A stretch of DNA of 35,522 nt from a virus, in the IMG/VR virus record IMGVR_UViG_3300032322_000365, positions 1 through 35,522 of that record. One strand, 5' to 3'. The notes beneath the pieces were generated by a model. It made no database searches and was not told the origin of the DNA. It saw only the letters and a program-made list of their open reading frames with translations. The position numbers were made by a program, and so were the translations under genes. Below, one piece after another: positions 28,759 to 32,004 of the stretch (position 1 is the stretch's first letter; each line of letters opens with the position of its first letter).

Positions 28759-30645
28759 TTATCCGTAGGTTTCTTGCCATTGCTCAGCAAAGGCTTCATC
28801 TAAGTTAATTGAGAATCTTTTTTCTTTTTGTGCTCTGGTTGCCCAGCGGTTATTTGCGTATCGACTTATGTTACTTGACTGTTGCATAAATTCCCTTGCT
28901 CTAAGCACGGTAAACCACAACGCCATAACACAGTCAGTCTTACCACGGGTATTAGGCTTCCAAGTTATTAATTGTTGGATTAAAGCCTTCAGACCCTCTG
29001 AGTGTTCCGTAGAAGGAAACTCAATAATGTTATTCTTTTGGAACTTATCATCTCTTAAAGTTCCCATCAGCATAGACATACCTGCTACACCAAAGTTAGA
29101 ATCCCATTTGTTCTTGCTAGTAAAGTGAGACTCTAATCTACACCCATACGCAGCAAGCCAGTTTCTTAAGTTATCATCTAATGAGTAGGCTTTTTGGTGA
29201 GCGTTAATCTCAACCCTTAGTTCCTGTGGTTTGTATTTATCAACCAATTGCTCAATAGCATCTTGAATCTTTTGCGGTGTTGGGTCTGCCATATTTACGC
29301 AGTCAAGAATATATATCTTGCCATCACGTCTGTTAAAGGTAGATACCACAAACGCGGCATTCCCGCCCATTGCGGGGTCAAACCCTATTATTGTATACCC
29401 CTCAATGTGCGAGGGATGTCCCACGGCACCCGCTTTCAGCGGGCCGCGTTTGCGCTGTCCGTTAATACAACCTTGAACAATCGCAGGTGGAAATATAGAA
29501 TCTACTTGAACATCTTCTTGTTGATATACCAGTGCCCAAGTTGACGGCGTTACTTCGCTACGCCTTTTGGCTAGCGCTTTACCATCCCACTTCGGGAAGA
29601 ATCCTTCTTCGTCAGGAACATCAGAATCCCCATCCCAGGGAGCATCCGACTTAGGCCAGAGCGTTTTCCAATCTTGCGTGCTTTCCGCATATTCCAATAC
29701 AGCAGGCATACCCATATAAGTAAAAGGGCTTTTACCACCAGACCAGTGTTTGGCCTCGCGGAGTTCTTTGTAGAAGTCTTGTGGTGCAATTCGCGTCCCT
29801 ACGATTAGTAACTTACCGTTCTTACCCAAACGGGTAATAACTTCTTTTTGTAGCCAGTTGATTTGCTTATCAAACTCGTGAGCGTTGGCTGTAGTAATAC
29901 AGTCGTCCAAAATAATTAAATCGGCACGTGCTCCGTAAATCTGTCCACCCATACCAAGTGCTTGGATGGTTGGGTCTTTCTCAGATGAATTTCGGGCATC
30001 GCCCCCAAGGTAAACGGTATCAACTCGCCAAGTATCTGAGTCCTCTTTCCAACCCCCCTCTGGTCCAAAAGTTGTTTGCAACTTTAACCATCTTGGGTGG
30101 GAGAGTCTCTGCTTGATTGCGTACACGAACTCGCGTGCTTTGATTAACGTTTTAGAAACCACAATGATGCGGACATTCGGATTGAGGGCGATACGATATG
30201 TGGAGTAGTTTACGGTGATGACTGTGCTCTTGGCGTGCTCAGGTGGCACGTTGATTAGCAGACGTGTTGGGTCAGCCTTTTCGTAAACCATACTAGGGTG
30301 GAGCCAAGAAGGCTCCCTACCCTCTAGTAGGTCAATCCAATCCATATGGTGAGGGAATACCCTCTGTTGTAAAAATATCTCGGAGAACTTAGGAAAGTCT
30401 ATTTCCTCTTTTGGGATACCCAGCGAGGCAAGGGAAGCATCCTTTGCGGTCTCCTTAGCCTCGGCTAAATCGGCGGCAAACTTTTTATCTCGTAGGCACC
30501 AGATTCGGACGGTGTCGGGTTTCTTCCCGCACATCTCCATAGCCTTGTGGACAGAGTGGCCTTCGGCCACGAGGGCTAAAACTTTAGCCTTTGCTCCTGC
30601 CATAGCCAGGGTTTTGGGGTTAGTATTTCCCTTGTTGAAAGTCAT
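28759..30645 (-). CDS. terL: Terminase large subunit with an N-terminal HTH domain
   Basis: A 628-residue terminase. Residues about 15-65 form a helix-turn-helix (VLALVAEGHSVHKAMEMCGK, then PDTVRIWCLRDKKFAADLAE) as in small subunits. The ATPase has Walker A VPPEHAKST (133-141), Walker B LIILDDC (Asp247/Asp248) and coupling motif VGTR (282-285). The RNase-H-like nuclease has Asp423 (IIGFDPAMGG), Glu479 (RVEINAHQK) and Asp571 (KTDCVMALWF). It cuts concatemeric DNA and drives it through the portal. No separate small subunit gene lies nearby, so the N-terminal HTH may do DNA recognition. It is the first gene of the late operon. Walker B has Asp instead of the more usual Glu as second acid. Confidence 0.92.
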   Translation of the reverse strand: MTFNKGNTNPKTLAMAGAKAKVLALVAEGHSVHKAMEMCGKKPDTVRIWCLRDKKFAADLAEAKETAKDASLASLGIPKEEIDFPKFSEIFLQQRVFPHHMDWIDLLEGREPSWLHPSMVYEKADPTRLLINVPPEHAKSTVITVNYSTYRIALNPNVRIIVVSKTLIKAREFVYAIKQRLSHPRWLKLQTTFGPEGGWKEDSDTWRVDTVYLGGDARNSSEKDPTIQALGMGGQIYGARADLIILDDCITTANAHEFDKQINWLQKEVITRLGKNGKLLIVGTRIAPQDFYKELREAKHWSGGKSPFTYMGMPAVLEYAESTQDWKTLWPKSDAPWDGDSDVPDEEGFFPKWDGKALAKRRSEVTPSTWALVYQQEDVQVDSIFPPAIVQGCINGQRKRGPLKAGAVGHPSHIEGYTIIGFDPAMGGNAAFVVSTFNRRDGKIYILDCVNMADPTPQKIQDAIEQLVDKYKPQELRVEINAHQKAYSLDDNLRNWLAAYGCRLESHFTSKNKWDSNFGVAGMSMLMGTLRDDKFQKNNIIEFPSTEHSEGLKALIQQLITWKPNTRGKTDCVMALWFTVLRAREFMQQSSNISRYANNRWATRAQKEKRFSINLDEAFAEQWQETYG

Positions 30646-30671
30646 TAGTCCTGTCCCGTTTTCATTCTGTT

Positions 30672-30708
30672 ACAGTCTGTTAGTAACAGGTAGTAGATAC
30701 AGTCTGTA
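30672..30708. promoter_or_regulatory. Pair of ACAGTCTGT dyad operators upstream of terL
   Basis: ACAGTCTGT occurs at 30672-30680 and again at 30699-30707, the second inside the perfect dyad TACAGTCTGTA. Their centres are 27 bases apart. A CTGTTAC/GTAACAG inverted repeat encloses the first. They lie 27-63 bases upstream of the terL start, so binding here could control late transcription. They look like repressor or activator sites. The binding protein is unknown. Confidence 0.55.
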
Positions 30709-30710
30709 AC

Positions 30711-30731
30711 GCAAGTTCCGAAAGAACTTGC
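30711..30731. other. 8-bp inverted repeat GCAAGTTC/GAACTTGC
   Basis: A perfect stem of 8 bp with the five-base loop CGAAA, at 30711-30718 and 30724-30731. No T-run follows on either strand, so it is not an intrinsic terminator. It is located immediately beyond the ACAGTCTGT pair in the probable terL leader and may be a protein- or RNA-level control site. Confidence 0.55.
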
Positions 30732-30779
30732 TACTGTAAAAAATAAAATAGTCTCTATATAGTATTAACCTGTTCAAAT

Positions 30780-30802
30780 GGCCAAAACGAACGTTTTTGG
30801 CC
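30780..30802. other. 8-bp inverted repeat GGCCAAAA/TTTTGGCC
   Basis: Arms at 30780-30787 and 30795-30802 with a seven-base loop (CGAACGT). On the plus strand a TATTTTT run follows nine bases later, which is weakly terminator-like; on the minus strand none follows. It may be an operator or part of an origin. Confidence 0.5.
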
Positions 30803-30936
30803 CAACTATTTTTAAAAGCCTGCCAAAAAATAGTACAAAATAGGACATAACGGTATAGCAAAGGACTGTGAACACTGTACGGAAAAATCTTTTTGGTAGA
30901 TACATATACATACTCAGCACAGTATTAATCAGTCTG

Positions 30937-30980
30937 GGGTCAAGATAGTTGACCCATAGCCTGATACTGAGACCTACTAT
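30937..30980 (+). promoter_or_regulatory. Candidate plus-strand promoter overlapped by an inverted repeat
   Basis: TTGACC (30949-30954) resembles a -35 box and TACTAT (30975-30980) a -10 box, but the 20-base spacing is longer than ideal. The -35 box is one arm of the inverted repeat GGGTCAA/TTGACCC (30937-30943, 30949-30955), with an ATCAG/CTGAT pair outside it. Two ACAGT boxes follow at 30981-30990. The architecture suggests a regulated promoter for the operon at 31554, with a long leader. Unproven. Confidence 0.35.
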
Positions 30981-31136
30981 ACAGTACAGTGTGATGCTGA
31001 ACAGAAGGCAGTCTCGGCGCTCCTTTGCTAACACATCCGCGCCCAGTTAAAAACTAAAAACAAAAACATAAATGGCTAACAGGTGGTACCTGACGACGCT
31101 AGACCAATGGTCGTAATCCGTCCTATGCTTCGTGGT

Positions 31137-31167
31137 CAAAGGGAACGCGCCTGCTTTGTTCCCTTTG
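31137..31167. other. 10-bp hairpin CAAAGGGAAC/GTTCCCTTTG
   Basis: Perfect arms at 31137-31146 and 31158-31167 with an 11-base loop. It is the leftmost strong stem of the GC-raised half of the region. No T-run follows. A similar stem with AAGGGAAC recurs at 31970-32004. Confidence 0.65.
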
Positions 31168-31190
31168 CCCCGCGAATCAAAGGCGGACCA

Positions 31191-31227
31191 GACGGCGATA
31201 CAATTCTCTAGAATTGATATCACCGTC
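31191..31227 (+). other. Long hairpin, terminator-like on the plus strand
   Basis: GACGGCGATA (31191-31200) pairs with TATCACCGTC (31218-31227) with one mismatch, and inside it CAATTC pairs with GAATTG around the tetraloop TCTA, with one bulged A. TTTTAC follows, so on the plus strand it could act as a weak intrinsic terminator or attenuator. It may equally be a domain of a larger RNA. Confidence 0.6.
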
Positions 31228-31263
31228 TTTTACTTATGACCCCTTTGATTATATCTCCATCAG

Positions 31264-31349
31264 CAAAATAGCAAGCCTACTTAACAATGATTCCCGTCAC
31301 GCCCTTCAGGCATGACAGTAATCACAGTTAAGTCTGTACTTGCTATTTG
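31264..31349. ncRNA. Five-segment nested stem, part of a putative structured RNA
   Basis: Five complementary pairs nest in order: AAATAGCAAG (31266-31275) with CTTGCTATTT (31339-31348), ACTTAAC (31279-31285) with GTTAAGT (31327-31333), TGATT (31288-31292) with AATCA (31320-31324), GTCA (31296-31299) with TGAC (31313-31316), and GCC (31301-31303) with GGC (31309-31311), closing a five-base loop. Small internal loops separate them. Total pairing is about 29 bp in 86 bases. It is not a tRNA: no acceptor/T-arm layout. Strand of transcription is unknown. Confidence 0.5.
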
Positions 31350-31392
31350 AGTCACCATTAATCTATGACTGCCTGGCTGGGCTGCTGATGAC

Positions 31393-31495
31393 GGCTCTCG
31401 ATTTTGAGCATTCGAGTCTTGGCAAGCACAAGCCTCTCATAAACGCGCTCAAAATAGGCTGGCAGGCTAAAGCCTGCGTAGCCATTGCTCGAGCC
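31393..31495 (+). ncRNA. Three-way-junction-like RNA structure in the leader
   Basis: A closing stem GGCTC (31393-31397)/GAGCC (31491-31495) encloses two further stems. The first is ATTTTGAGC (31401-31409) with GCTCAAAAT (31447-31455), 9 bp perfect. The second is GGCT-GCAGGC (31457-31467) with GCCTGC-AGCC (31472-31483) around a TAAA loop. Such a junction so close to a start codon (58 bases downstream) resembles a cis-regulatory RNA or the 3' domain of a larger RNA. No known riboswitch is recognised. Plus strand chosen because of the operon downstream. Confidence 0.5.
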
Positions 31496-31513
31496 TAAGA
31501 TGTTTGGGCGTTG

Positions 31514-31530
31514 CCCTTAAAATTTAAGGG
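31514..31530 (+). promoter_or_regulatory. 17-base inverted repeat just upstream of a ribosome-binding site
   Basis: CCCTTAAA and TTTAAGGG flank a single A. The repeat ends 11 bases before AAAGGAG, the ribosome-binding site of the gene at 31554. It could be an operator for a dimeric regulator or an RNA switch. As RNA it would make a stem with a small loop that limits access to the site. Confidence 0.5.
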
Positions 31531-31553
31531 TGGTAACAGAAAAGGAGATAAAA

Positions 31554-31958
31554 ATGAATACTGAAATCATAGTTCAAAGCCAACTTACCCTAATGAACGA
31601 ATGCTATCAGTGCCAACAACTGAATGAACTATGCTCTGACTGCCTCGAAGCCAAGGAGGCTCGAGACGCAGTCATAGCCCACAAACTGGTTGATGAGTAC
31701 GAACCAATGTATCTAAATATGGCTACTATCCAGGATGAGCCTTCGGCTCACGACTGGATTTCCGCCGAAGTGGTTACATACGTAAATCCAAAGACTGGTG
31801 AAAAAACCACTCGGACTGAGTTCTTTGAACAGTCCTCCTGGTTAATAGATAGAATCTTCAATCTTGATGACTCTATCGAACTATCCAAGCACGAAACAAT
31901 ATGTGACTCTTGTCACTACACAATAAACAAACACGCAGTTTGTCCTAACTGCAACTAA
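31554..31958 (+). CDS. Hypothetical protein with two Cys-pair clusters
   Basis: A 134-residue protein starting at the ATG at 31554 with AAAGGAG seven bases upstream; a GTG at 31530 is rejected as it lacks a site and lies in the inverted repeat. The N-terminus carries CYQCQQLNELCSDC (residues 17-30) and the C-terminus CDSCHYTINKHAVCPNC (about 117-133). Each half has two C-x-x-C knuckles, so two zinc sites, or one shared site, are likely. The middle is acidic with a beta segment (EVVTYVNPKTGEKTTRTEFF). First gene of the right-hand operon. It may bind nucleic acid or protein; no family recognised. Confidence 0.7.
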   Translation: MNTEIIVQSQLTLMNECYQCQQLNELCSDCLEAKEARDAVIAHKLVDEYEPMYLNMATIQDEPSAHDWISAEVVTYVNPKTGEKTTRTEFFEQSSWLIDRIFNLDDSIELSKHETICDSCHYTINKHAVCPNCN

Positions 31959-31969
31959 CTATACAGACT

Positions 31970-32004
31970 GGCAGTCCCTTGTCCCAAGTGCCAAGGGAAC
32001 TGCC
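31970..32004 (+). other. 12-bp intercistronic hairpin
   Basis: GGCAGTCCCTTG (31970-31981) pairs with CAAGGG-A-ACTGCC (31992-32004), one A bulged, with a ten-base loop. No T-run follows. It fills the gap between two genes and probably affects mRNA stability or processing. It shares the AAGGGAAC core with the stem at 31137-31167. Confidence 0.65.

Follow-up and report, generated by a model that had tools for sequence, protein, structure and literature searches.

A covarying, probably minus-strand RNA module in an exchangeable slot upstream of terL in phages of presumed freshwater Actinobacteria

Introduction

What occupies the gap of about 900 nt that, in the viral genome IMGVR_UViG_3300032322_000365, separates the gene of the terminase large subunit (terL), read leftwards, from an operon read rightwards? 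The whole 35,522-nt stretch of this record was analyzed and is referred to here as the window. An earlier note, made from its letters alone, had proposed that positions 31080-31530 within the gap form a large structured non-coding RNA. Few such RNAs are known from phages, and what the ornate ones do has not been established for any of them. Both GOLLD and ROOL are large, phage-borne and without a known function; GOLLD rises during lysis, and proximity to tRNA islands is usual for both but not obligatory (PMC12286853).

Results

Genes run leftwards from 30645 and rightwards from 31554. On the left, terL (28759-30645, minus strand; phrog_38, E 1.6e-70) is the first gene of the leftward late arm. 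About 400 nt adjoining it are conserved among relatives, whose alignment delimits a conserved control region upstream of terL (30646-31044, no strand assigned) that forms the left wall of the slot described below. Direct repeats of CAGTCT occur there at 30673, 30700, 30930 and 31009, and the motif averages 4.35 copies per relative vs. 0.2 expected (74 relatives). The region also holds a conserved hairpin, GCAAGTTC-CGAAA-GAACTTGC, at about 30710-30730, and it is possible that the repeats and hairpin serve as operators or iterons. On the right, the slot is bounded by a gene for a cysteine-rich protein of unknown function (31554-31958, plus strand), in which two CxxC pairs are visible by eye and for which no PHROG or Pfam match was found. 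Homologues of this protein adjoin the slot in 33 contigs found directly, and are also present in the carriers of the module (29-45% identity). The protein accompanies the slot in most cassette types, and is a candidate nucleic-acid-binding regulator or RNA partner.

The genome also encodes a sigma factor (440-1102; phrog_354), WhiB (1613-1897), a portal and a major head protein, whereas no tRNA gene was found in the whole window. WhiB is an indicator of actinophages (PMC10202952), and among cultured phages the TerL relatives are E7 and F5, which infect 'Ca. Planktophila' (TerL 62% identical). Because of WhiB and this kinship, we infer that the host is a freshwater actinobacterium, probably one of the Nanopelagicales.

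The region 31080-31550 folds with an energy of -178 kcal/mol on the plus strand and -189 kcal/mol on the minus strand, corresponding to z-scores against shuffled sequence of -6.6 and -7.9, respectively, with no shuffle folding as well. GC content had been counted by hand as about 49% against about 38% next door, and these values were borne out by measurement: 48.3% for 31080-31530 vs. 38.4% for the left flank and 40.2% for the whole window, a level reached by only 3.8% of equal-sized windows. The statement that no protein frame fits was likewise upheld, since the longest ATG frame in the window's copy is 40 aa, the best frame varies among relatives, and none is conserved across them.

Relatives were gathered from IMG/VR by means of the flanking proteins and short conserved DNA stretches, and the module was found in 27 contigs besides the window (28 members in all). 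The last pattern matched 28 contigs, among which L144 was a chance match of just 24 nt; L144 and L150 were dropped because just 22-24 nt matched, and L138, recovered by one 18-base pattern, lacks the module. The full-length copies of 18 relatives are mostly 83-93% identical to the window at the nucleotide level, whereas in the same contigs terL DNA is mostly 70-75% identical, and the right-hand neighbor protein is 29-45% identical in distant copies. Since the RNA's identity exceeds that of terL, either the element is the better conserved of the two or it has been passed from phage to phage. The copies in L143 and L146 have diverged (77% over 305 nt) and carry different sequence for one domain; in L143, other sequence stands in place of the domain at 31393-31495. 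Exchange or loss of domains is also seen in GOLLD, whose 5' region is less conserved.

The consensus structure of 21 full copies comprises 159 pairs in 18 helices. Its core (31095-31539, about 445 nt) rests on conservation and covariation; the A-C/G-U asymmetry given below places it most likely on the minus strand, with the RNA's 5' end at the right. The extent first suggested, 31080-31530, is corrected in that the core spans 31095-31539 and the 3' end probably lies near 31045-31075. The 5' two thirds of the RNA are closed by a long-range helix between 31497-31531 and 31239-31257; its parts (31527-31531/31239-31243, 31519-31523/31248-31252 and 31497-31501/31253-31257, minus strand) are supported by covariation, the outermost five pairs being less certain (89.5% paired). 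Enclosed by it are a three-way junction (31393-31495), with a stem at 31393-31400/31488-31495 and arms at 31457-31483 and 31401-31455 (tip 31410-31440), and a central domain (31258-31390), made of a stem (31258-31265/31383-31390), a small hairpin (31349-31371) and a long arm (31266-31348). In the tip of the junction one pair is G-C in 16 sequences and A-U in five. Toward the 3' end follow a 17-pair hairpin with a four-base loop (31190-31228; 99.7% of cells paired, one pair being G-C in 18 and A-U in three), a 27-pair arm (31115-31189) and a small hairpin, GACC-AUU-GGUC (31102-31112; 94% paired). Confidence is lower for outer helix 1 and for parts of arms 11 and 13. All five stems named in the earlier note are present and recur in the consensus: 31137-31167 is the inner part of the 27-pair arm, 31191-31227 corresponds to the 17-pair hairpin, 31264-31349 to the long arm closed by the stem of the central domain, and 31393-31495 to the three-way junction. 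The last, 31514-31530, is a genuine inverted repeat, but the minus-strand consensus pairs its arms otherwise. A hammerhead-like CUGAUGA noticed by eye on the plus strand was rejected, as no ribozyme family matched.

In the 21 aligned copies, 97.2% of pair cells hold, compared with 35.8-41.6% when the partner is slid by one to three columns. Both sides have changed in 21 pairs vs. 10.5 in shuffles, and none of 500 shuffles scored as high. Using our own R-scape-like implementation (not R-scape itself), in which substitutions are re-dealt along the tree and a G-test with APC is applied with the structure given, six pairs in four helices were significant at E<0.05. Four of these lie in the 27-pair arm, the best-supported helix, where seven pairs have changed on both sides. 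The long-range helix is also represented (31498/31256): column pair 42-288 is U-A in 16 sequences and G-C in five (E=0.0014 under the tree null). The covariation among relatives that had been put forward as a check was accordingly observed, and the comparative evidence as a whole supports a large structured non-coding RNA. However, the structure supplied was predicted from the same alignment, and when all pairs were tested as one set nothing was significant, so that the six pairs hold only with the structure supplied beforehand. We therefore regard the covariation support as good but not overwhelming.

The strand was addressed with strand-neutral helices, for which G-U pairs were forbidden and the same 131 of about 140 pairs were predicted on both strands. 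Read on the plus strand, these helices contain 40 A-C vs. 12 G-U cells, and among single interior mismatches there are 69 A-C vs. 0 G-U cells. Counted by position in 22 copies, A-C occurs at 33 vs. 12 for G-U (binomial p 0.002), and an unrelated cassette, type E, shows the same bias (17 vs. 4; p 0.007). The alifold energy is -295 on the minus vs. -260 on the plus strand. Since A-C on the plus strand is G-U on the minus strand, the RNA is most likely made from the latter. Judged from these substitution patterns, we consider it very likely that the RNA shares the strand of terL and runs opposite to the rightward operon. The inverted repeat at 31514-31530 is an exception, having G-U on the plus strand, as would an element of the rightward mRNA. 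No strand signal came from types B, C, D and H, which offer too few informative cells, and the short type F and G cassettes lean to the plus strand without significance.

Evidence for the ends of the RNA is weaker. A T-rich tract directly follows the core (31045-31075, minus strand) and, from its sequence, is the probable 3' end and termination region. At the left end of the slot, a hairpin followed by a T-run is present on the minus strand in 21 of 72 relatives and on the plus strand in five of 72, mostly in other cassettes; in copies of the module itself (type A) the hairpin at that place is not a clear, textbook terminator. No convincing promoter for a minus-strand RNA was found on inspection of 18 copies and of other cassettes. 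The phage's own sigma factor may explain the absence of recognizable sigma-70 promoters near the RNA. A candidate promoter of the rightward operon, CTAAGA-17-TAAAAT (31495-31523, plus strand), falls within the module at its right end. A stronger form, CTGAGA-17-TAAAAT, occurs in two relatives (L131 and L129), and TAAAAT is retained in all aligned copies except where a flanking T is lost, but matches of this type are no more frequent than expected by chance or in shuffles. Synonymous conservation at the start of the neighboring gene, examined as a possible sign of an overlapping promoter, was 0.88 for codons 11-30 vs. 0.71-0.89 elsewhere (0.48 over three codons).

Between the control region beside terL and the rightward operon, the sequence changes completely among relatives, and we refer to this site as a swap slot. 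Ninety-five distinct loci fell into 12 sequence clusters, seven with at least three members (31, 24, 14, 8, 6, 4 and 3) and five singletons. Of the 49 slots scored, 44 fold with z of -2.5 or lower, whereas most control stretches from the conserved region gave -2.2 to -3.6; most, though not all, of the larger and smaller cassettes can thus be said to fold strongly. Domains recur between some cassette types: about 90 nt is common to E and C, the 3' part to B and D, and the 5' 80 nt to F and G. When cassette type was placed on the TerL tree, at least 29 changes were required, and two loci with identical TerL rows (L026 and L007) carry different cassettes. The uniformity of type A on that tree is attributable to ascertainment, because its distant carriers were located by searching for type A itself. 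Neither the slot nature of the locus nor the minus-strand placement and the long-range helix is in the earlier note.

Homology searches did not connect the RNA with a known family. A cmscan of the window and 10 relatives against Rfam gave no family at the gathering threshold; the suggested likeness to GOLLD and ROOL did not translate into membership, as there was no GOLLD or ROOL hit up to E 5 in 30640-31560. Hits up to that value were due to chance (MIR6425, 17.5 bits; Mu-gpT-DE, 16.4 bits). With blastn (word size 11), no match was found in 50,697 phage records, the Alma/LadyBird-type ncRNA included, or in plasmid records. An 18-base pattern gave three hits in 84,980 prokaryote genomes, none with the module, vs. 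about 7.5 expected by chance by our own arithmetic. A covariance model of the 3' domain, run against 48 sources including other cassettes, recovered known type A copies only. No 13-nt match or complementarity of the RNA was found elsewhere in the window or to other phage genes, nor did we find a partner or a repeated protein-binding motif for it. A literature search of partial coverage yielded no description of the RNA. Large structured phage RNAs are a known kind, whereas this RNA family and its multi-cassette slot appear to be new.

Discussion

We have little doubt that the module is a functional structured RNA. Its fold, covariation, lack of a conserved ORF, slot and swapping can be read from the sequences compared; that it is a stand-alone transcript is inferred, and seems probable rather than assured. 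Our best explanation, which in the absence of transcript data we hold at about even, is that the module encodes a minus-strand structured phage ncRNA of about 450 nt (31540 to about 31060) and represents one allele of the slot. The RNA would end near the T-rich tract, short of the conserved region that precedes terL. It would be made during infection, fold, and act in trans, either by attaching to a factor of the host (ribosome, polymerase, nuclease or a defense component) or by assembling as a GOLLD/ROOL-like scaffold. An arms race over the bound factor, in conflict with hosts or with other phages, would then explain why cassettes are exchanged so rapidly. Action in trans as a decoy or scaffold is itself an inference, offered tentatively and with somewhat less than even confidence. 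Several observations count against this explanation as a whole, namely the missing minus-strand promoter, the want of a textbook terminator in type A, the lack of transcript data, the plus-strand G-U of 31514-31530, the silence of types B, C, D and H on strand, the plus-strand lean of F and G, the failure to find a partner, motif or 13-nt match, and the absence of tRNA genes from the window.

The module resembles GOLLD and ROOL in being phage-encoded, hundreds of nucleotides long, elaborately folded and non-coding, and GOLLD was first described from lake material. In contrast to those RNAs, it measures about 450 rather than 660-800 or more nt, lacks an Rfam match and tRNA genes in the window, and lies between divergent terL and rightward operon in a slot with many alternative cassettes. 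It is also conceivable, although we think it rather unlikely, that the site is a dedicated locus of interchangeable RNA cassettes, exchanged through recombination like immunity or incompatibility alleles, which sets what phages can share a cell or what host factor is blocked. The cassettes would in that case be different, mostly complex structured RNAs, some with common domains.

Among the rival explanations, the best is that the minus-strand RNA primes or opens replication with the host polymerase at an RNA-based origin, the A/T-rich tract being the melting site. On balance we consider it unlikely, though the cassette types would then be incompatibility groups, which would explain their diversification and swapping. 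In cluster A mycobacteriophages, a reverse-oriented ncRNA upstream of parA is needed for extrachromosomal replication; in LadyBird and Alma the deleted ori segments are about 400-500 bp, and like replicons are incompatible (PMC7157519). The origins of Alma, LadyBird, RedRock and Et2Brutus share with our module an actinobacterial phage setting and the same geometry, an ncRNA of about 400-500 nt running in reverse, upstream of a forward gene. CAGTCT direct repeats and an A-rich stretch flank the 3' end of our RNA, no DNA_pol_A match was found in eight relatives, and all eight encode a RecA/DnaB-like ATPase. Cumulative GC skew reaches its minimum near 31985, next to the slot, which fits as well, but this point coincides with the change in gene direction, which alone would produce it. 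Moreover, no sequence similarity to the cluster A ncRNAs, or to any phage in the collection searched, was detected. The precedent serves prophages with parABS, in which those ori regions were shown to act, and lytic growth of Alma persisted after deletion of its ori (PMC7157519). The phages studied here are not known to form prophages, and a search of 11 related contigs, which included fragments, matched neither ParA (PF13614) nor a tyrosine integrase (PF00589) (ParB and parS were outside that search), so that a role in prophage maintenance is not favored. Conservation of the fold is not reported in the parts of the cluster A papers available, and a primer RNA would have no need to maintain a fold of 450 nt with column identity of about 90%.

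More doubtful is a late-operon leader, in which transcription would start to the right of the module, pass through the RNA and, dependent on antitermination, continue into terL and the structural genes. The model here is the lambda arrangement of 6S RNA, tR' and Q, with which the module may share a terminated leader that precedes the packaging genes on the late strand; lambda 6S RNA is 194 nt long and little structured by comparison. In its favor, terL and the rest of the late arm are read from the RNA's strand, some cassettes have minus-strand terminators between the RNA and terL, and the phage encodes a sigma factor of its own. On the other hand, the region between slot and terL has a promoter-like conserved stretch of its own, seen by eye near 30750-30775, and simple antitermination requires neither a 450-nt fold nor many exchangeable ones.

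An improbable alternative is that the module is the plus-strand 5' leader (UTR) of the rightward operon, as a cis-regulatory RNA or mRNA-stability element. The module ends only 15 nt ahead of the operon's start codon, its last hairpin has G-U on the plus strand, and the plus-strand fold is also stable. Nevertheless, the asymmetry in two unrelated cassettes and the complete lack of plus-strand G-U among single interior mismatches argue for the other strand, and the candidate plus-strand promoter, in the module's right end, lies downstream of most of the module. Packaging sites often adjoin terL, and a DNA-level element without any RNA role (single-stranded or cruciform hairpins acting as packaging site, origin or recombination target) would suit this position, the strong inverted repeats and the sharp swap boundaries, but it is the least probable reading of all, as one-strand G-U substitutions, long-range nested helices and covariation fit an RNA, and a cos or pac site would be expected to track the terminase, yet identical TerL is found with different cassettes.

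The module adds to the few large structured phage RNAs one that has 28 members and covaries well, from phages that infect what are probably the most abundant freshwater Actinobacteria. The surprising part is the swap slot. It amounts to a natural experiment, related phages having different RNA cassettes, so that function could be tested by exchange. Distant relatives are already in culture, although without the type A RNA: LanE43AprE7 and LanE43AprF5 (OX376640 and OX376641) likewise have about 900 nt of non-coding sequence upstream of terL (PMC10202952), but no type A homologue was found in them and their slots fold weakly (z about -2.5 to -3.8). These two phages have 96.8% ANI and most of their shared genes are nearly identical, yet the stretches upstream of terL differ.

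Two minor observations concern the slot in other relatives. The shorter cassettes with strong hairpins (types F and G, cluster M1), found in L036, L038 and about 30 related loci, occupy a slot of 130-180 nt upstream of a gene of 100-113 aa, and no other cassette is as common in the close relatives sampled. Finally, seven contigs (L035, L037, L039, L063, L066, L084 and L087) terminate at the slot's edge, 299-371 nt upstream of terL, which likely reflects assembly breaks from cassette polymorphism or a packaging end.
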